Shown one piece after another: positions 10,013-19,102 of a stretch of 64,000 bases of DNA. Both the position numbers and the translations under genes were made by a program. Every line of letters begins with the position of its first letter. Position 1 is the stretch's first letter. Origin of the DNA: Pseudomonas sp. DTU_2021_1001937_2_SI_NGA_ILE_001. Lineage in GTDB: Bacteria; Pseudomonadota; Gammaproteobacteria; Pseudomonadales; Pseudomonadaceae. A model generated the notes under the pieces. That model saw only the letters and a list, made by a program, of their open reading frames with translations, ran no database searches and was not told the origin of the DNA. The stretch spans positions 4,583,501 through 4,647,500 of the forward strand of contig NZ_CP135971.1 in the NCBI RefSeq assembly GCF_032463525.1. The letters are read 5' to 3'.

Positions 10013-11017
10013 TCAAGCGAGCCTTTCGAGGTAGCGGGGCGCATTGGGCTCTGGCAGTACGGACAGCACCTTGAGCCGTTGCAGGGTGCGCTCGCGGGCT
10101 TTGGCGATGTGGTCGCGCAGGCACGAGCAGGCCGACTCGACCGTTCCGTACAACAAGGCCTCGAAAATCAGGCGATGCTCGACCAGCATCGCTTCGTCGT
10201 TGCTGGAATGCAGGGCTTCATGCAGTACGCGACCGACGTTCATGGGGATCTGGCACTGGCGAATGACCGCTGCCATGCGCGTGTTGCTCACCCCGGCGAT
10301 GCAGGTGACGTGCAGGTCTTGCTCCAGCTGTTCGATGGCTGCCCGGTGCACGTCGCGGCCCGCGGCCTGGGCTTCGATCACGCGCTGCAACATCGCTTCC
10401 AGGTCGCTGCGAGACACCTGTTCGACACCTTGGCGAAGAGCATCGGGTTCCAGCAGCATTCGCAGTTCGTAGTCTTGCTTGACGGCCTGGGCCGTCAGTG
10501 GCCCGGCCAGCCATTGCGAGTAGGGCTCTTTTTCCACCAGGCCCTTGTCGCGCAGGCGCATCAAGGCTTCTCTGATGACCGCTCGGCTGACGTTCAGCTC
10601 TTCGGCGGCGCTCTGTTCGTCGATGCGATAGTGACCGAAGACCATGAAACGGATGACTGTCTGCGCGAGGTGGTCATAGATCCGCTCGCCCAGGGGGCGG
10701 TAATCGATGAGGTCGTCCTGTGGCTCCAGGCCCAGCAGCTTGCGGGTCAGGGGTACGCGGAGCGGGGTTTGCGTGGTGCCCTCGGGGTCGATCATGAAGC
10801 CCCGGCCATCGAAACGGCGAATGAGCCCTTCTTCATGGAGCAGATTCAGGGCCTGGCGAACCGGTACGCGGCTGGTACCGAAAAGCTCGGCCAGCGGGCC
10901 CTCGACCAGCACCAGGCCAGGAACCGTCTGACCGCCGAGAATCGCATCGCGCAACGTGTTGCGAATGGTCTCGTAGCGAGAAGACGGACGCTCTTCCAGG
11001 GAGGGTGTGGCAGACAT
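10013..11017 (-). CDS. GntR-family regulator with two tandem winged-helix domains and an FCD domain
   Basis: This regulator of about 334 residues is roughly 100 residues longer than a normal FadR-subfamily GntR protein. The excess is a second winged helix. The first DNA-binding domain covers about residues 12-75 (LAELFGTSRVPVRQALNLL). The second covers about residues 105-165 (AAEELNVSRAVIREALMRL). An FCD-type ligand/metal domain follows (about 175-315). It diverges from the amidase operon and probably controls it. Start candidates are TTG 11035, ATG 11032 and ATG 11017; the last has a weak GAGAG upstream. Whether both HTH units bind DNA is unknown. Confidence 0.82.
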   Translation of the reverse strand: MSATPSLEERPSSRYETIRNTLRDAILGGQTVPGLVLVEGPLAELFGTSRVPVRQALNLLHEEGLIRRFDGRGFMIDPEGTTQTPLRVPLTRKLLGLEPQDDLIDYRPLGERIYDHLAQTVIRFMVFGHYRIDEQSAAEELNVSRAVIREALMRLRDKGLVEKEPYSQWLAGPLTAQAVKQDYELRMLLEPDALRQGVEQVSRSDLEAMLQRVIEAQAAGRDVHRAAIEQLEQDLHVTCIAGVSNTRMAAVIRQCQIPMNVGRVLHEALHSSNDEAMLVEHRLIFEALLYGTVESACSCLRDHIAKARERTLQRLKVLSVLPEPNAPRYLERLA

Positions 11018-11319
11018 CAGGACGGCTCTCATCAAGCGTGGCGGGGAAGTTTCTCACAAGCAGGGGGGAGATGTGAGCGAACGCCGGTAACACTTCCATG
11101 AGCGATCTTGGGGCGAGCTGTTACTGAAAAGCCCAAAATGGATCATTTATTTAAAAATACATTTTTCGAGCCAGGCGCGTTGCGCAAACCCATTACCGCA
11201 TTCATCTGCCTGTCATAGAGCCTCCCAATCCAGTATGGGACCTAAGGTTCAAAACTTGGCACGCTCAATGCTTCTATAAATGTACTTATTTTTAAAATGT
11301 ACATTTTGTAGGGTGTGCC
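11018..11319. promoter_or_regulatory. Divergent control region of the amide-catabolism operon
   Basis: This 302-bp region separates the double-HTH regulator from the amidase. It contains AT-rich dyads against a GC-rich background: AAATG-GAT-CATTT at 11136-11148, AAAAAT-AC-ATTTTT at 11153-11166, and the 14-bp palindrome AAAATGTACATTTT at 11294-11307. AAATGTAC also occurs alone at 11278-11285, 17 bp before its copy in the palindrome. These are candidate operators for the GntR protein. Confidence 0.5.
11256..11272 (+). promoter_or_regulatory. Sigma54-like -24/-12 promoter of the amidase operon
   Basis: TTGGCACG (11256-11263) is followed after 4 bases by ATGCT (11268-11272). The GG and GC dinucleotides are 10 bases apart, as required for RpoN. 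The predicted start is near 11283, giving a 35-40 base leader that would contain the AAAATGTACATTTT palindrome. No clear activator site was identified upstream. Confidence 0.55.
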
Positions 11320-12678
11320 ATGCGTGTCGATGCTCATTCCCTGGCCCAGCGATTCGCCGAGGGCACGACCGACCCTGTCGAGGTGCTCGACCACGCGCTG
11401 CTGGGCGCGGCGCAAAGTCCCGCGGCGTTCATTAGCCTCACCGAACAGCGCGCCCGGCGTGAGGCGCTTGCCGCCCAGGCGCGCTGGCAGGCCGGTCAAC
11501 CGTTGTCGCCCTTCGATGGCGTACCTGTGGTGTGGAAAGACCTTTACGACCTGGCCGGCTGCGTTACCACGGCCGGGGCCAAAGTGCGCATGGGCAACCC
11601 CCCTGCATCACGCGATTGCTCACTGGCCGTGGCGCTCAGCCGTGCCGGCATGGTGTGCGTCGGCAAGACCAACCTCAGTGAGCTGGCGTACTCCGGGCTG
11701 GGCTTGAATCCGCATTTCGGAACCCCGGCCAATCTGCGCTTCAACGGTGAGCTGCGTGCCCCGGGTGGGTCGTCTTCGGGTTCGGCCATCGCCGTTGCCC
11801 ATGGCATCGCGCCTGTGGGCATGTCTACGGATACTGCAGGTTCGATCCGAGTGCCTGCCGCGTTCAACGGCCTGGTGGGCTATCGAAGCAGCGCGAAGCG
11901 TTATTCGTTCGACGGCGTGGCACCGCTGGCCAGCTCGCTCGACTCGCTGGGGCCGATTACCCACAGCGTTCGCGACGCCATCGTGGTGGATAACCTTTTG
12001 CTGGGCAACCGCACTGGCATGCCGCTGGAGGTGCCGGGCCTGCCCATCGCCGGGGTCCGGCTGTGTGTGGATGTCGAGCTGCTGCGTGATGTGCGCATCC
12101 AGGCTGAAGTCAGTGCCAATCTTCTTGCTGCGCTGGAGCGCCTGGCCTCGGCAGGCGCCGTGATCGAGCGCCGGAAGGTGCAGGCTTTTCAACAGGCACT
12201 GGAGGTCATCGAGCAGGTTGGCTGGCTTGGCAGTGCCGAAGCCTTTGCTCTGCACCAGGCGCTGCTCGACAGCCCGGATGCCGAGCAGCTCGACCCCCGC
12301 GTGCGCCAACGGCTTGAGGCTGCGCGAGCCTACCCGGCCAGTAAACAGGTGCGCTTGTACCAGGCTGCCCAGGCCCTCAAGGCACAGATGGCCCGAGAGC
12401 TGGATGGGGCGTTCCTGGTGACCCCTACGGTCGGTCATGTTGCGCCGCTTCTGGCGCCTCTCGAAGAGGACAACGAGCTTTTTGTGCGCACCAACCTGGC
12501 GACGCTCAGGCTGACCATGCCCGGCAGCATGCTGGACATGCCCGGCGTGGCGATCCCCAGCGGTATCGGAGAGGCAGGGCTTCCCACCAGTTTCCTTCTT
12601 TCAAGTTTCAGCGGAAATGACCCGCAACTGCTGCGTGCCGCCCTGGCGATCGAGCCTTTGGTGCGAGGTTGGAGCTGA
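11320..12678 (+). CDS. Amidase-signature family amidohydrolase
   Basis: This 452-residue amidase belongs to the GatA/AtzE/FAAH signature family, which hydrolyses a linear amide to acid and ammonia in the cytosol. The Ser-cisSer-Lys triad is complete: Lys73 in VWKDLYD, Ser151 in the Gly/Ser-rich loop GGSSSGSA, and Ser175 in DTAGSIR, with spacing as in FAAH. It is first in the plus-strand operon, just after a sigma54-like promoter. With the PuuE-like hydrolase next to it, a ring-opening then deamidation sequence is plausible. The gatCAB amidotransferase role is unlikely because no gatB or gatC is nearby. Confidence 0.85.
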   Translation: MRVDAHSLAQRFAEGTTDPVEVLDHALLGAAQSPAAFISLTEQRARREALAAQARWQAGQPLSPFDGVPVVWKDLYDLAGCVTTAGAKVRMGNPPASRDCSLAVALSRAGMVCVGKTNLSELAYSGLGLNPHFGTPANLRFNGELRAPGGSSSGSAIAVAHGIAPVGMSTDTAGSIRVPAAFNGLVGYRSSAKRYSFDGVAPLASSLDSLGPITHSVRDAIVVDNLLLGNRTGMPLEVPGLPIAGVRLCVDVELLRDVRIQAEVSANLLAALERLASAGAVIERRKVQAFQQALEVIEQVGWLGSAEAFALHQALLDSPDAEQLDPRVRQRLEAARAYPASKQVRLYQAAQALKAQMARELDGAFLVTPTVGHVAPLLAPLEEDNELFVRTNLATLRLTMPGSMLDMPGVAIPSGIGEAGLPTSFLLSSFSGNDPQLLRAALAIEPLVRGWS

Positions 12679-12741
12679 AGGCCGCCCGGCGGGCAGGCCA
12701 TTGCGGTGCGCGTTTATTTGAATGAAAACGAGGTATGCGTC

Positions 12742-13623
12742 ATGGCAAAAGAAATCTTTGTATCGATTGGTGTGGATGTCGATGCGGTAGCGGGTTGGCT
12801 CGGCTCTTACGGTGGCGAGGACTCGCCGGACGACATCTCTCGCGGGCTTTTTGCGGGTGAGGTCGGCTCTTTGCGCCTGCTCAAGCTGTTTGCCAAGTAC
12901 GAGCTGCGCACCACCTGGTTCATCCCCGGCCATTCGGTGGAAACCTTTCCTGAGCAAATGAAGGCGGTGGTGCAGGCCGGTCATGAGGTGGGGATTCATG
13001 GTTACAGCCATGAAAACCCGATTGCGATGACCCCCGAGCAGGAAGAGATCGTGCTGGACAAGTCGATCGAGATCATCACCCAGCTTTCGGGCAAGCGGCC
13101 CACCGGTTATGTGGCGCCGTGGTGGGAATTCAGCAACGTCACCAACGAGCTGTTGCTGAAGAAGGGCATCAAGTACGACCACAGCCTGATGCACAACGAC
13201 TTCCATCCCTACTACGTAAGGGTCAAGGACAGCTGGAGCAAGATCGACTACAGCCAGCACCCCGATACCTGGATGAAGCCCCTGGTGCGCGGTGAAGAAA
13301 CCGATCTGGTCGAGATTCCGGCGAACTGGTACCTCGACGACCTGCCACCCATGATGTTCATCAAGAAGTCTCCGAACAGCCACGGTTTCGTCAATCCTCG
13401 CCACCTGGAGGAGATGTGGCGTGATCAGTTCGACTGGGTTTACCGCGAACACGACTACGCCGTATTCCCCATCACCATTCACCCGGACGTTTCGGGTCGA
13501 CCTCAAGTGCTGCTCATGCTTGAGCGCTTCATCGAGCACATGAAAAGCCATGAAGGCGTGCAGTTCGTAACCATGGACGAGATCGCTGACGACTTTATTC
13601 GGCGGCAACCCCGCAAACGTTGA
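12742..13623 (+). CDS. PuuE-like polysaccharide deacetylase family hydrolase
   Basis: This 293-residue NodB-fold metallohydrolase is close in layout to PuuE-type allantoinases and cyclic imidases rather than to secreted chitin deacetylases, and it has no signal peptide. Visible metal-site residues are Asp12 and Asp14 (VDVDA) and His86 and His90 (GIHGYSH). A later HPD segment lies near residue 252. ATG 12742 has GAGG 8 bases upstream and is preferred over the upstream GTG at 12706. The gene lies 63 bp after the amidase. I infer hydrolysis of a cyclic amide or imide, giving the amidase its substrate; the actual compound is unknown. Confidence 0.75.
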
Positions 13624-13678
13624 GAGACGTTTGGGTTGACCCATTCATAGGCGCAACAGAAACAAGAGAAATGCCGAT

Positions 13679-15040
13679 ATGACCACTACACAAGCCACCA
13701 CGGCGACGTCAGTCACTGAGTCCGCTGGGGCATGGAAGCCGGTACAACTGCAATCAGGAGACGTCAAATACGCAACCTGGATTGCCTTCTTCGCGTGGGT
13801 TTTCGCGGTATACGACTTCATCCTGTTTGGCACACTGCTACCGGTCATGGGTGGGCATTTCACTTGGAGCGAAGCGGAACAGGCCGAAATCGCCACTTGG
13901 GTGGCGGTGGGCGGCGCGGTCATCGCCTTCGTCGTCGGTCCACTGGTGGACAAGATCGGCCGACGTGGCGGGATCATGTTCACCATCGGCGGCACTGCCC
14001 TTTGTTCTGCGCTCACGGCCATATGCGCCGGGATGGGCAAGGGGCCGCTGATTGCGGTTCGTTCGGTCGCAGGCCTGGGGTATGCCGAGGAAGCGGTAAA
14101 CGCGACCTACCTGACCGAGGTCTACGCAGCGTCCACCGATCCGAAACTGATCAAGCGCCGGGGGTTCGTCTACAGCCTGGTGCAAAGTGGCTGGCCGGTG
14201 GGGGCGTTGATCGCGGCAGGCCTCACGGCGCTGTTGCTGCCGCACATCGGTTGGCAGGGTTGCTTCGTGTTCGCCGCGGTGCCTGCCCTGGTCGTCGCGA
14301 TCCTGGCGCGCAAGCTCAAGGAAAGCCCGCAGTTCCAGGTGCTGCAGCGTATCAACCAGCTGCGCAAGGCCGGTGACGAATCTGCCGCCCGCAGCCTTGC
14401 GCACGAGTATCACGTCGATTACGACGAGCATGCGAAGGCGGGTGTGGCCGCCGCATTCCGAGGCGCTGCGCTGCGCCCGACCCTGGTGCTGAGCCTGGCG
14501 ATTCTCCTCAACTGGTCGGCCATTCAGGTGTTCAGCGTGCTGGGAACCTCAGTGATCGTCAGTGTGCACAAGCTGTCGTTCGAGAATTCACTGTGGATCC
14601 TCGTGCTGTCCAACCTGGTGGGCTTCATCGGCTACCTGGTCCACGGTTGGCTGGGGGATCGTATCGGTCGCCGCAACACCGTCGCGCTGGGCTGGATGTC
14701 GGGTGGGCTGGCGTTCTTCGCCATGATCCAGGGCCCCAGTGACCTGGTGACCGTGGTGGCGCTGTACAGCCTGGGTCTGTTCTTCCTGACCGGCCCGTAC
14801 TCCGCCCTGTTGTTTTTCATGGGCGAAAGCTTCCCCACCAGTATCCGTGCAACGGGCGGGGCCATCGTGCATGCCATGGGTCCTATCGGCGCCATCGTCG
14901 CCGGCCTGGGCATCACCAGCGTGTTGACGGCCGGTGGCCAGTGGCACAGCGCGGCGCTCTGGTTCGGCGCGCTGCCTTGCTTCCTGTCGGGCCTGGTGAT
15001 GTTGGCGGCCCGTCACGTCGAACCCCGCTCAGTCAAATGA
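13679..15040 (+). CDS. MFS transporter, metabolite:H+ symporter type
   Basis: This 453-residue major facilitator has about 12 hydrophobic segments. The conserved loop-2 motif is present (GPLVDKIGRRGG, near residues 82-93) and repeats in the second half as GWLGDRIGRRN. The layout matches the sugar/aromatic-acid symporter families that import small organic acids in the inner membrane. It sits 55 bp behind the PuuE-like gene, so it is the likely importer of the pathway substrate. The substrate cannot be deduced. Confidence 0.82.
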   Translation: MTTTQATTATSVTESAGAWKPVQLQSGDVKYATWIAFFAWVFAVYDFILFGTLLPVMGGHFTWSEAEQAEIATWVAVGGAVIAFVVGPLVDKIGRRGGIMFTIGGTALCSALTAICAGMGKGPLIAVRSVAGLGYAEEAVNATYLTEVYAASTDPKLIKRRGFVYSLVQSGWPVGALIAAGLTALLLPHIGWQGCFVFAAVPALVVAILARKLKESPQFQVLQRINQLRKAGDESAARSLAHEYHVDYDEHAKAGVAAAFRGAALRPTLVLSLAILLNWSAIQVFSVLGTSVIVSVHKLSFENSLWILVLSNLVGFIGYLVHGWLGDRIGRRNTVALGWMSGGLAFFAMIQGPSDLVTVVALYSLGLFFLTGPYSALLFFMGESFPTSIRATGGAIVHAMGPIGAIVAGLGITSVLTAGGQWHSAALWFGALPCFLSGLVMLAARHVEPRSVK

Positions 15041-15067
15041 TTCATTCAAATAACCGGGAGCGTAATC

Positions 15068-15829
15068 ATGTCTCAACCCGTGGCCTTGATCACCGGAGCG
15101 GCCAGCGGTATTGGCCAGGCGGTGGCAGTCGCCTATGCGAAGAAAGGTGTGCGTGTCGTCGGCGGCTATCTGGCGGGTGACCCACATGACCCTGCGCAGA
15201 CACAGCAGCTCGTCGAAGACGCTGGCGGCGAGTGCTTGATGATGCCCATGGACGTTACCGACAGCGCGTCGCTGGAGGCCATTGCCGCAGCAGCCGTCGA
15301 GCGTTTCGGGCGGCTCGACTATGCCGTCGCCAACGCCGGGCTGTTGCGCAAGGCGCCCCTGCTGGACATGTCGGACGAGCAATGGGACGCCATGCTCAAC
15401 GTCGACCTGACGGGCGTCATGCGTACGTTCCGCAGCGCCAGCCGCCATATCGGCGAAGGCGGCGCCCTGGTGGCGATCTCCTCGATCGCCGGCGGCGTGT
15501 ATGGCTGGCAGGAGCACGCGCATTACGCCGCCGCCAAGGCGGGCGTTCCAGGCCTGTGCCGCTCCTTGGCCGTAGAGCTTGCGCCCAGGGGCATTCGCTG
15601 CAACACCATCATCCCGGGGCTGATCGAAACCCCGCAGTCGCTGGATGGCAAGAACTCGCTGGGGGCCGACGGCCTGGCCAAGGCCGCCAAGGGCATTCCC
15701 CTGGGGCGCGTTGGGTGGGCCAGCGAAGTGGCCGATCTGGTCTGCTACCTGACCGGGCCTGAGTCGAGCTATATCACCGGGCAGAGCATCATCATCGATG
15801 GCGGCCTGACGGTGCGTTGGCCTGAGTGA
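15068..15829 (+). CDS. Short-chain dehydrogenase/reductase
   Basis: This 253-residue classical SDR has the nucleotide motif TGAASGIG (about residues 10-17), NAG near residue 90, a catalytic Ser in the AISSIAGG segment, and YxxxK in YAAAKAG. It should oxidise or reduce a hydroxyl/keto group with NAD(P). It follows the MFS gene by 27 bp and is only a distant relative of the next gene, so the two probably act on different steps or substrates. Confidence 0.85.
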
Positions 15830-15840
15830 AACGACACTAC

Positions 15841-15860
15841 GCCGCATGACGCCATGCGGC
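15841..15860 (+). other. Intra-operon hairpin between the two SDR genes
   Basis: GCCGCATG and CATGCGGC form a perfect 8-bp stem with a 4-base loop in the 48-bp gap between the two dehydrogenase genes. It has no T-run, so a processing or mRNA-stabilising role is more likely than termination. Confidence 0.45.
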
Positions 15861-15877
15861 TTGGAGGGCATTGAAAA

Positions 15878-16627
15878 ATGAAGCCATTGCAAGATCGACG
15901 TGCGGTCATCACCGGTGCCGGCAGCGGTATCGGTGCGGCGATTGCTGTTGCCTATGCCGATGCCGGTGCAAGGCTGGTGTTATGTGACCGCGACGCGGAG
16001 CGTCTGGCGGTGATCGCCGGGCACTGCCGTGCCCGTGGCGCCCCAGTGACGCCATGCGTGGCGGACGTGGGCAGCAGGGAAGGGGCTCAGGCAGGAGTGG
16101 ATGCCTGCATCGAGGCCTACGGTGGCATCGATATTCTGGTGAACAACGCCGGCATGTTGACCCAGGCGCCTTGCGTGGATCTCACCCAGGCGATGTGGGA
16201 CGAGATGCTGCGTGTCGACCTGACCAGCGTCTTCGTCGCCAGTCAGCGGGCACTGCCGCACATGCTGGAGCAGAAATGGGGCCGCATCATCAACATCGCT
16301 TCCCAGCTGGGTATCAAGGGCGGCGCGCAACTGACTCACTACGCCGCAGCCAAAGCAGGGGTGATCGGTTTCACCAAGTCCCTGGCGCTGGAGGTGAGCA
16401 AGGACAATGTGCTGGTCAACGCCGTCGCGCCGGGGCCTATCGAGACGCCGCTGGTCGATGGCCTCAGCCAGGAGTGGAAGGCGGCCAAGTCCAGGGAACT
16501 GCCGCTGGGTCGATTCGGCAGGGCCGAAGAGGTGGCGCCGATCGTGGTGCTGCTCGCCTCCGAGCCTGGTGGCAACCTGTTCGTCGGCCAGACCCTCAAC
16601 CCGAATTCGGGCGATGTCATGCCGTGA
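15878..16627 (+). CDS. Short-chain dehydrogenase/reductase (FabG-like)
   Basis: This 249-residue classical SDR has TGAGSGIG at about residues 12-19, NNAGML near residue 90, and YAAAKAG for the YxxxK pair. Overall it resembles FabG-type 3-oxoacyl reductases, but the setting in a catabolic operon argues for a dedicated alcohol or hydroxyacid dehydrogenase. It ends 8 bases before the 99-residue protein gene. Two different SDRs in one operon suggest two redox steps or oxidation of two stereoisomers; this is inference. Confidence 0.83.
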   Translation: MKPLQDRRAVITGAGSGIGAAIAVAYADAGARLVLCDRDAERLAVIAGHCRARGAPVTPCVADVGSREGAQAGVDACIEAYGGIDILVNNAGMLTQAPCVDLTQAMWDEMLRVDLTSVFVASQRALPHMLEQKWGRIINIASQLGIKGGAQLTHYAAAKAGVIGFTKSLALEVSKDNVLVNAVAPGPIETPLVDGLSQEWKAAKSRELPLGRFGRAEEVAPIVVLLASEPGGNLFVGQTLNPNSGDVMP

Positions 16628-16635
16628 GGTGAGCG

Positions 16636-16935
16636 ATGTGTGGATTGTGTGGCCTGATCGGCGAAGACACGCACTGGAGCGACCCTATCGACACCAGCCT
16701 GCCCGGCCGACGCGAGCGGTTGCGTCGTATCGCGGCGATCAACCAGGTGGTCGCCCCTTTCCGGCTCAAGGTCAGCGATGTTCAGGGCGCGTCTTACCTG
16801 GTACAGGGGGCGACCGGCAAACAAGGTGTCGCCTCGGGCCTGGAACAGCTCTGGCAGACAGCCGAAGAAATTCTTGGGCGTCGCCTCGACCCCCTTGACC
16901 CGCGAATTCTCGAACATCTGGAAATGCCCGCATGA
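16636..16935 (+). CDS. 99-residue Cys-rich hypothetical protein, CobW partner
   Basis: This short protein starts MCGLCGLIGED, giving a Cys2/Cys5 CxxC pair at the extreme N-terminus followed by His and Asp/Glu residues. The rest is an Arg-rich helix and a Gly/Leu-rich tail. It overlaps the CobW gene by the tetranucleotide ATGA, so the two are translationally coupled. Close coupling to a metal-chaperone GTPase makes a metal-binding or acceptor role plausible. The MCG start superficially recalls class II glutamine amidotransferases, but the protein is far too short for that fold. No firm function can be assigned. Confidence 0.7.
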   Translation: MCGLCGLIGEDTHWSDPIDTSLPGRRERLRRIAAINQVVAPFRLKVSDVQGASYLVQGATGKQGVASGLEQLWQTAEEILGRRLDPLDPRILEHLEMPA

Positions 16936-17921
16936 GTCTGCAGATCAACGTACTGACCGGTTTTCTGGGCAGCGGCAAGACCACCTTGCTGCAGCGGGTC
17001 CTGGCCCATGAAGAGATGGGCGAGACGGCCCTGCTGATCAATGAGTTCGGCGAGGTCGGGATCGATGATCTGCTCGTGCAGGAAATCGCGCCCAATACGG
17101 TGTTGCTGCCGAGTGGCTGTGTCTGCTGCTCGATCAGGGGCGATCTGAAGCAGGCGCTCATCGACCTGCACGACAAGCGCAGCCGTGGCCTGATACCGCC
17201 GTTTCGCCGAGTGCTGCTTGAGACCACAGGCCTTGCCGACCCGGCGCCGATTCTTTCTACCTTGCAGCGTGACCCGCAATTGCGTGGCCGCTATCACTTG
17301 GGACTGATCGTCACCGTCGTGGATGCTCAGCATGCTGCGCTCCACGAGCGCATCCACCCCGAATGGCTGGGCCAGGTGACGGCGGCCGATCGACTGCTGG
17401 TGAGCAAGGCCGATCGGGTATCGGTTGAGGTGCTCGAGCAGGTCACTGCCCATCTTCAATCGCTCAACCCATCCGCCTCGGTGGCGCTGGCCAGTGGCGT
17501 CGGTGAGGGTGACGAGCAGCTTCTGGGTGAAGGACTCAGGAGCCCTGAGCCTGATGACGAGGTCGCCAGGTGGCAGCTGTTCGCACCCACCCGACAGCCG
17601 CAGCATGGCGGGGCCCAAGTCTGTGCCCTGGAGTACGACCAGGCACTGGACTGGCTGGCCTTCGGGGTTTGGCTGTCGATGCTGTTAAGATGCCACGGCG
17701 AACGCATTCTCCGGGTCAAAGGGATTTTGGATGTAATGGACTGCGAACAACCTATCGTCATTCACGGTGTCCAGCACTGCCTGCACACGCCGGTGCATCT
17801 GAAGGCGTGGCCCGGCGGTGAGCGGCGCTCGCGCCTGGTCATCATCGTGCGCGATCTGGACACCCGGCTGCTGCGTCGATCATTCGAAGCTTTTGTGCAG
17901 CGTCTGGGGCGAGCGGCATGA
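16932..17921 (+). CDS. CobW/COG0523 family GTPase, putative metallochaperone
   Basis: This 329-residue G3E GTPase has Walker A GFLGSGKTT (residues 10-18), the metal-binding CxCC motif at residues 63-66 (SGCVCCS), the LLETTGLADP switch region, and a C-terminal CobW domain. Such proteins load Zn, Co or Fe into client enzymes in the cytosol. Start and stop codons overlap both neighbours (ATGA at each end). It may metallate the PuuE-like hydrolase of the same operon, much as P47K proteins serve nitrile hydratases; that client is inference. Confidence 0.85.
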   Translation: MSLQINVLTGFLGSGKTTLLQRVLAHEEMGETALLINEFGEVGIDDLLVQEIAPNTVLLPSGCVCCSIRGDLKQALIDLHDKRSRGLIPPFRRVLLETTGLADPAPILSTLQRDPQLRGRYHLGLIVTVVDAQHAALHERIHPEWLGQVTAADRLLVSKADRVSVEVLEQVTAHLQSLNPSASVALASGVGEGDEQLLGEGLRSPEPDDEVARWQLFAPTRQPQHGGAQVCALEYDQALDWLAFGVWLSMLLRCHGERILRVKGILDVMDCEQPIVIHGVQHCLHTPVHLKAWPGGERRSRLVIIVRDLDTRLLRRSFEAFVQRLGRAA

Positions 17922-19102
17922 GCGGTCCCGTGACCTTGAGGGTATTGGGCACCTCCGTGACCCTGCTCGAGTCGATTCGCCTGCGCGCCGAGCGAGAGCT
18001 GGGCATTCGTATCGACTATCAGGTGCATGACGTACAGACGGTGCAGCGCATTGCCTTGATGCATCCGGAAAGCTACGACCTCTACGATCAATGGTTCCAC
18101 AGCATGGACTTCGTCTGGCCTGCCGGTGCCATACAGCCCATTGATATCCGGCGCGTCGCCCTATGGGATGAGATCAATGACCTGGCCAAACGTGGCAGGC
18201 TGCATGCCCACGACACTCTGGGCGGTGGCAGCCTGCCCTGCGATCGCCTGTTCGTTCAGCACGATCGCAGCCTGGCCAACCGCCCCAGCGACTTCATCAG
18301 CATGTTGCCGCTGACCCACAATGCGGACAGCTTCGCCTACCGACCCGACCTGCTACCCCCTGGATTTTCAATCGATAACGAAAGCTGGTCCTGGCTGGTC
18401 GACCCCGCCTGGTGTGGCCATGTGGCCTTGCAGAGCGATGCGGCAATCGGTGCGCTCGATGCGGCGCTGGCCGTGCAGGCGAAAGGCCTGGCGAGGTTCG
18501 ACGTCTTGGCCAACCTGCGCCTGGAAGAGATCGACGAGCTTGCCGAGGTGCTCATCAAGCTGCAGCGCCAGGGCCATTTCGCGGCCTTCTGGTCGGATGA
18601 CCGTGACGCGGGCAAGCTCATGCTCGGCCCCAAGGTGCACATCGAAAGCCTGTGGTCGCCGGCGCTGATGCAACTGCATCGCGAGGGCATTCAATATCGC
18701 CAGGCGGTGCCCAAGGAAGGCTACCGGGGCTGGTTCGGCGGCCTGTCGCTGTCTCGTGCTGTCGAGGGGCCCGTGAAGGATGCAGCCTATGCCTACCTCA
18801 ACTGGTGGCTGGCCGGCTGGGCGGGGGCAATGATGGCACGGCAGGGGTTCTACATTTCCAATCCATTGCGTGCTCGCGATCATTTGTCGGCCGCAGAATG
18901 GGATTACTGGTACGAGGGCAAGCCTGCCAGGGAGCAACTGCTCGGCAGTGATGGCGAGCCGCTCATCGAGCCAGGGCAGATCCGAGAGGGCGGCTCGTAT
19001 GCCGAGCGAGTGAGCCGAATCAGCGTCTGGAACTCGGTGATGGACGAGCATAACTACCTGGTCCGCAAATGGGCGGATTTTCTCAGGGCCGGGCGATGCT
19101 AG
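17918..19102 (+). CDS. PotD-like solute-binding protein without signal peptide
   Basis: This 394-residue protein resembles extracellular solute-binding proteins of polyamine ABC systems, with an early LRVLGTS segment and a Trp-rich C-terminal half. It starts MSGPVTLRVL with no signal peptide, lipobox or twin-arginine motif, so it should stay in the cytoplasm. No ABC permease or ATPase gene is nearby. Its start overlaps the CobW stop (ATGA). It may have become a cytosolic ligand- or substrate-binding partner of the CobW/99-residue pair. An unseen upstream start is ruled out by the overlap with cobW. Confidence 0.72.
   Translation: MSGPVTLRVLGTSVTLLESIRLRAERELGIRIDYQVHDVQTVQRIALMHPESYDLYDQWFHSMDFVWPAGAIQPIDIRRVALWDEINDLAKRGRLHAHDTLGGGSLPCDRLFVQHDRSLANRPSDFISMLPLTHNADSFAYRPDLLPPGFSIDNESWSWLVDPAWCGHVALQSDAAIGALDAALAVQAKGLARFDVLANLRLEEIDELAEVLIKLQRQGHFAAFWSDDRDAGKLMLGPKVHIESLWSPALMQLHREGIQYRQAVPKEGYRGWFGGLSLSRAVEGPVKDAAYAYLNWWLAGWAGAMMARQGFYISNPLRARDHLSAAEWDYWYEGKPAREQLLGSDGEPLIEPGQIREGGSYAERVSRISVWNSVMDEHNYLVRKWADFLRAGRC

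Follow-up and report, generated by a model that had tools for sequence, protein, structure and literature searches.

A putative cyclic-imide operon of Pseudomonas with a conserved hydrolase, small cysteine protein and CobW-type GTPase linkage

In a 64,000-nucleotide stretch of the genome of Pseudomonas sp. DTU_2021_1001937_2_SI_NGA_ILE_001 (contig NZ_CP135971.1, positions 4,583,501 to 4,647,500; hereafter the window) we found an operon of eight genes, A to H, next to a divergent regulator gene, R. This operon probably scavenges nitrogen, and probably carbon too; the source would be a small cyclic imide, or else a hydroxylated lactam whose oxidation yields an imide. Its central gene, B, encodes a putative ring-opening hydrolase and was accompanied across lineages by the genes for a small cysteine-containing protein, F, and a CobW-type GTPase, G. 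A preliminary description of this DNA had suggested nitrogen scavenging from a cyclic amide; release of nitrogen from a cyclic C-N ring still appears probable, with the likely class now being a cyclic imide. The genes are located in the window as follows:

R, 10013-11035, minus strand: divergent regulator with two GntR helix-turn-helix stretches and an FCD ligand domain (Pfam)
A, 11320-12678, plus strand: amidase-signature hydrolase, proposed half-amide hydrolase; NF004766 with 649.1 bits (cut-off 559), amidase motifs present
B, 12742-13623, plus strand: HpPgdA/HxnM-type metal-dependent hydrolase, proposed cyclic imidase; polysaccharide deacetylase in Pfam
C, 13679-15040, plus strand: major facilitator superfamily (MFS) transporter by Pfam/NCBIfam, proposed importer
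D, 15068-15829, plus strand: short-chain dehydrogenase (SDR) by Pfam, with TGxxxGxG and YxxxK
E, 15878-16627, plus strand: a further SDR by Pfam, with TGxxxGxG and YxxxK
F, 16636-16935, plus strand: protein of 99 amino acids with the N-terminus MCGLCG, proposed partner of G
G, 16932-17921, plus strand: GTPase of the COG0523/CobW type whose nearest solved relative is YjiA; proposed to insert metal into B
H, 17918-19102, plus strand: PotD/PotF-fold binding protein without export leader; weak SBP_bac_8 match

Successive gaps from A to H were 63, 55, 27, 48, 8, -4 and -4 bases, which agreed with the eight same-strand genes, spaced from 63 bp down to 4-base overlaps, of the preliminary description. 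An in-frame GTG at 12706 is an alternative start of B. The protein G carried PF02492 (CobW) and PF07683 (CobW_C), with the P-loop GFLGSGKT and the CXCC motif as GCVCC.

B matched 3qbu (HP0310, the HpPgdA of Helicobacter pylori) with 538.8 bits over residues 9-305 of its 305-amino-acid reading, whereas the match to PuuE reached 70 bits, far below this score. All five active-site residues of HP0310 (D12, D14, H86, H90 and H247) are present in B at the same positions. PuuE binds no metal, unlike the HpPgdA group (PMC3084791; this and the other published accounts cited here were covered in part, and what we draw from them refers to those parts). Because B lies closest to the metal-binding HpPgdA/HxnM group and not to PuuE, a cyclic imide is the likely substrate class. 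HP0310 is a metal-binding tetramer without a polysaccharide groove and is thought to accept a small molecule; neither GlcNAc compounds nor acetylated polyamines, acetylated dipeptides or allantoin served as its substrate (PMC3084791). HxnM, a fungal relative of B, opens 3-hydroxypiperidine-2,6-dione (PMC9304392, PMC8478523), and a hxnM deletion strain of the fungus accumulates an imide (PMC9304392). The P. putida YZ-26 imidase AAY98498 (Shi 2007), which has been described as a cyclic imide hydrolase (homolog), is 64.2% identical to HxnM (PMC9304392). Among 120 listed homologues of B, three (P0269, P0339 and P0346) bore the name cyclic imide hydrolase, which refers to names only. From these relationships we propose that B is a hydrolase of the HpPgdA/HxnM group which opens a cyclic imide. 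The PuuE-like hydrolase of the preliminary description did not hold, and B as a PuuE allantoinase was rejected at 86.3 bits with TIGR03212, for which the curated cut-off is 424.6 bits.

The lower half of the nicotinate pathway of Aspergillus nidulans (hxn) is the nearest chemical relative of the proposed route, with an SDR (HxnW), an HpPgdA-type imidase (HxnM) and an amidase (HxnN) in like order. HxnW makes 3-hydroxypiperidine-2,6-dione, and HxnN frees the nitrogen (PMC9304392, PMC8478523). The hxn regulon includes transporters, as does the operon; unlike the operon, it is not reported to contain a CobW GTPase, an F-type protein or a binding protein in the part of the literature covered. The fungal upstream oxygenases are absent from the operon, which is bacterial, single and equipped with a sigma54-type promoter. 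No described pathway with this exact gene set had been known to the preliminary description, and none was found in the literature that we searched, although HxnW/HxnM/HxnN constitutes a described chemical parallel.

In the proposed pathway, for which we infer substrate class, order of steps and direction of transport, C would import the compound, D and E would oxidise hydroxyls of the ring or side chain, and B, with a mononuclear metal site, would open the imide ring by hydrolysis, giving a half-amide. This product would then be split by A into a dicarboxylate and ammonia, a step in which L-asparaginase may substitute in other lineages. F and G would load metal into B, R would keep the sigma54 promoter repressed as long as its FCD domain has not bound a pathway compound, and H would bind a pathway compound in the cytoplasm.

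The gene set was highly conserved. We inspected the 80 named loci that ranked highest against H, out of 569 confirmed relatives, a choice that biases them to close relatives. All nine genes (R and A to H) were present in 71 of them, in a few cases with one gene as two matched pieces; five lacked A alone and four were cut by contig ends. Besides Pseudomonas, these loci came from Halotalea, Prodigiosinella, Brenneria, Mangrovibacter, Pantoea and Enterobacter. Among 21 whole-genome loci, 20 had the full set of nine with unchanged gene order, and the remaining one, L043, was without A. Strong matches to H, B and F fell in the same 22 of 99 Pseudomonas genomes (23 of 99 for H if a weak match in G023, with 25% identity and E 1.1e-4, is included), and complete gene sets also occurred on plasmids of Paraburkholderia, with R located after H, and of Klebsiella. 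The co-occurrence of the nine genes is far beyond chance. Since the flanking genes differed among loci (25 groups among 70 upstream flanks, 26 among 72 downstream flanks), R to H behaves as a cassette or mobile unit and is likely a single, probably transferable catabolic unit. The single operon claimed earlier was thereby borne out. In one of the 20 complete loci, L046 from Pseudomonas, B, D and H matched in separate pieces, reflecting decay or sequencing error. The Klebsiella pneumoniae plasmid with the full set (L204) has annotations including deacetylase, hypothetical protein and 'signal peptide prediction', and in the gammaproteobacterial locus L149 the operon genes were read by eye in order.

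The signature amidase of the preliminary description is present with its motifs, but A is dispensable, being missing in six otherwise complete loci (L043, L064, L068, L104, L118 and L120). This parallels the tolerated loss of hxnN, which is leaky and only partly felt (PMC9304392, PMC8478523). In several other lineages, including an archaeon, an L-asparaginase gene adjoined B or was part of its cluster, and Pfam confirmed two of these genes. Interchangeable amide hydrolases after ring opening fit the prediction of an imide pathway. Near one B-F-G-H cluster (L213:17130-18876) we also noted a second, distant polysaccharide deacetylase adjoining an amidase and a urea-carboxylase-associated gene.

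Transport also varied, with C replaced elsewhere by ABC or NCS1 transporters (PF02133; cytosine/purines, uracil, thiamine, allantoin permease). NCS1 transporters include hydantoin and allantoin carriers, and other bacteria held near B Pfam-checked genes for Hydantoinase_A and Hydantoinase_B, an isochorismatase-fold hydrolase and an Asp/Glu/hydantoin racemase. A dihydropyrimidinase near B was annotated in one locus and read by eye in L141 and L191. We count these neighbours and the exchange of transporters in favour of the cyclic-imide reading. The dihydropyrimidinase, hydantoinase or hydantoin-racemase-family genes that occurred near B in some loci, and the NCS1 transporters, would also suit a ring that is a hydantoin, dihydropyrimidine or other ureide, with A acting on the carbamoyl or ureido product. 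We regard this as quite improbable, since B would be redundant in loci that already hold hydantoinase-type genes, since amidase and asparaginase partners suit a half-amide better than a carbamoyl product, and since HP0310 was inactive on allantoin.

The linkage of B with F and G extended well beyond the complete operon. It was followed in 24 loci from genome assemblies of organisms other than Pseudomonas, all with a B of 60% identity or more (four of them from two genomes with two copies each) and in 19 stretches of 87 B-matching plasmid records, picked for organism spread, one via the H search. Three gammaproteobacterial loci (L148, L149 and L150) stood outside these counts, and L197 was kept apart since its B is only 41% identical. 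All 24 genome-assembly loci contained F and 23 of them also G, the exception for G (L195) being a 7-kb contig; both were present in 15 of the 19 plasmid loci. B, F and G lay close on one strand in 30 of 43 loci (B-F within 200 bases, F-G within 700). F and G were located about 5 kb from B in L192, L193, L194 and L210 and faced B in L196, C to E lay between in L198 and L204, and L216 was rearranged. No match to other operon genes was obtained at the thresholds used in 13 of the 16 loci L175-L190, nor in L151, L206, L209 and L214; the other three of the 16 (L180, L181 and L186) had SDR relatives further away. In L151 (9667-15480), genes resembling thiO, thiG and thiE followed B-F-G, as read by eye.

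The host genome contained six CobW-domain matches in 5.66 Mb, so that chance adjacency of G to B would be rare. Because F and G accompany B across lineages, often without other operon genes, B is the likely client of G, and the conserved linkage suggests that F and G work as a pair that inserts metal specifically into imidases of this family. This is in line with the dedicated metal supply to an enzyme that had been put forward from the first look at the sequence. F and G might instead serve H, the SDRs or general metal stress, given that G and H overlap by 4 bases here and that H follows G in the whole-genome and named loci; this is unlikely, however, because in the 13 loci just mentioned and in L206, L209 and L214 F and G accompanied B while none of A, C, D, E and H was matched at the thresholds used. 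A comparable arrangement is known from Fe-type nitrile hydratase and its COG0523 activator Nha3, where the GTPase gene is kept beside the gene of the activated metalloenzyme (PMC2770081), as G is beside B; enzyme and metal centre differ, and the operon adds a second small protein, F. For F there was no match in Pfam or NCBIfam, and a search with its model found no structural relative. M1, C2, C5 and G6 were among the positions invariant in 52 aligned F sequences, and the N-terminus was poorly modelled in the predicted structure.

H was predicted to adopt a PotD/PotF fold by structural comparison of its model (predicted local distance difference test, pLDDT, 93.2). The first strand of the fold begins at residue 6 in the model, and no export leader was apparent, the top 12-residue hydropathy in the first 45 residues being 1.45, with no dedicated signal predictor run. 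Close relatives of H were also leaderless, whereas more distant, permease-adjacent relatives carried twin-arginine leaders. H differs from PotD/PotF and YdcS by the missing leader, with 16% identity, and the Asp of the PotF WFD motif is aligned with Gly in H. This operon contains no ABC permeases. Annotated plasmid clusters of Rhizobium, Shinella and Thioclava (L199, L200, L202 and L205) combined an ABC transporter with a binding protein that has a leader, yet had a leaderless H after G; an unannotated Sinorhizobium locus (L212) encoded both leader-bearing and leaderless H-type proteins, and Leisingera, with an NCS1-type permease, retained a leaderless H. Beta-type loci had a single H-type protein and adjoining permeases. 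Because leaderless H coexists with an exported binding protein and many alphaproteobacterial B-F-G loci are without H, it is not the transporter's receptor here and is not always needed. Homologues of HP0310 adjoin polyamine-importer genes (PMC3084791), which probably reflects H-type and ABC genes. Our best guess, held with low confidence, is that H binds the substrate, an intermediate or the inducer within the cytoplasm, and its function is the least certain part of our explanation. Leader-bearing relatives of H (46% identity), L135:9248-10534 and L136:8707-9957, were located beside long signalling-type genes with no permease seen nearby by eye, an arrangement that would suit a sensor role of these relatives. 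In L140, a leader-bearing H-type protein and permeases were found by eye with hydantoin-racemase-like, hydantoinase-like and 5-oxoprolinase-like genes.

Several observations weigh against a cyclic-imide operon with a dedicated metal supply. The imidase assignment leans, indirectly, on fungal and P. putida relatives, and most of the named homologues of B among the 120 listed are called polysaccharide deacetylase, and P0283 and P0301 peptidoglycan deacetylase, by name only. Acetylesterase and deacetylase activity of HP0310, on acetylated xylan, chitin, chitosan and p-nitrophenyl acetate, and a role in lysozyme resistance have been reported (PMC3688963). B was without F and G in four of the 19 plasmid loci (L203, L208, the haloarchaeal L207 and L215), and L197 had neither. 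HP0310 produced in E. coli is already metal-bound (PMC3084791), so a metal chaperone is not required by every family member. The Leisingera version lacked both SDRs and had an NCS1-type permease in place of the MFS transporter, and most alphaproteobacterial B-F-G genome-assembly loci were without H; SDRs and H are therefore not obligatory parts.

Some of these observations would fit B as a small-molecule deacetylase or esterase; the operon, with two SDRs of polyol type, would then break down a polyol or amino compound that carries an N- or O-acyl group. D and E did match polyol/3-oxoacyl-type SDR models, with scores below the cut-offs. We nevertheless consider this improbable, given the closed small-molecule site of HP0310 and its inactivity elsewhere on GlcNAc compounds, acetylated polyamines and acetylated dipeptides (PMC3084791), the accumulation of an imide upon hxnM deletion (PMC9304392), and the cross-lineage neighbours of B, which comprise amide hydrolases and asparaginase as well as hydantoinase-type genes and an NCS1 transporter. 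For the cyclic-imide operon a more far-reaching version can be offered, tentatively and with somewhat less than even confidence. F and G might be a new two-protein system for metallocentre insertion that is reserved for imidases of the HpPgdA/HxnM type. F would then be the first member of a protein family that uses its N-terminal Cys and CxxC (CGLCG once Met is removed) to pass metal between GTPase and enzyme, and H might at the same time be a solute-binding protein that has lost its export leader and now serves in the cytoplasm to carry, buffer or sense the imide or its half-amide.

The region between R and A contained the following candidate control elements:

11257-11272, plus strand: sigma54-type promoter TGGCACGCTCAATGCT (GG-N10-GC)
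11136-11164, unstranded: upstream operator-like pair (AAATGTACATTT-like, GntR type, 17-bp step), near the R side
11278-11306, unstranded: downstream operator-like pair AAATGTACTTAT / AAATGTACATTT, 17 bp apart, covering the expected transcription start

We compared the intergenic regions of the window and of 76 named loci, 77 in all, with single-base shuffles. A GG-N10-GC site with at least 4/6 flanking consensus bases was present in 77/77 regions (shuffle mean 5.65) and one with at least 5/6 in 57/77 (shuffle mean 0.4); these 77 sites are not 77 independent events because the loci are related. AAATGTACATTT-like sites (at least 9/12) occurred at least twice in 76/77 regions, compared with about 1.2/77 in shuffles. 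Their commonest spacing was 17 bp and the others were mostly 150-190 bp, i.e. two pairs, which straddle the sigma54-type site. In the upstream pair of the window, AAAAATACATTT at 11153-11164 scored 10/12 against the operator-like motif, and the half at 11136 was weaker and read by eye. The natural reading of the paired sites would be a double operator for R as a double-headed GntR protein. As a candidate site for an enhancer-binding protein, the NtrC-type consensus was matched at 9/12 or better in 35/77 regions (shuffles about 12.7), the 25 listed being mostly one repeated lineage motif, and at 10 or better in 3/77. R accompanied the operon wherever the contig extended far enough (21 whole-genome and 80 named loci) and is likely its repressor. 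The sigma54-like promoter and divergent regulator of the preliminary description were thus both recovered.

New in this analysis is that B is linked to F and G, that H lacks a leader, that transporters are exchanged between loci and that the control region, with its sigma54-type site and paired operator-like sites, is conserved. In our judgement a cytoplasmic PotD-fold protein with a role in an operon is unusual, and a limited literature search found no such protein by title. If our explanation is true, R to H would be a complete genetic unit for bacterial cyclic-imide catabolism, from uptake, oxidation and ring opening to ammonia release and regulation. It would also assign a likely client to one branch of the COG0523 GTPases, for which few clients are known, and make F a new accessory protein. 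For the family of B, it would bear on the real role of H. pylori HP0310, which has been called a peptidoglycan deacetylase.

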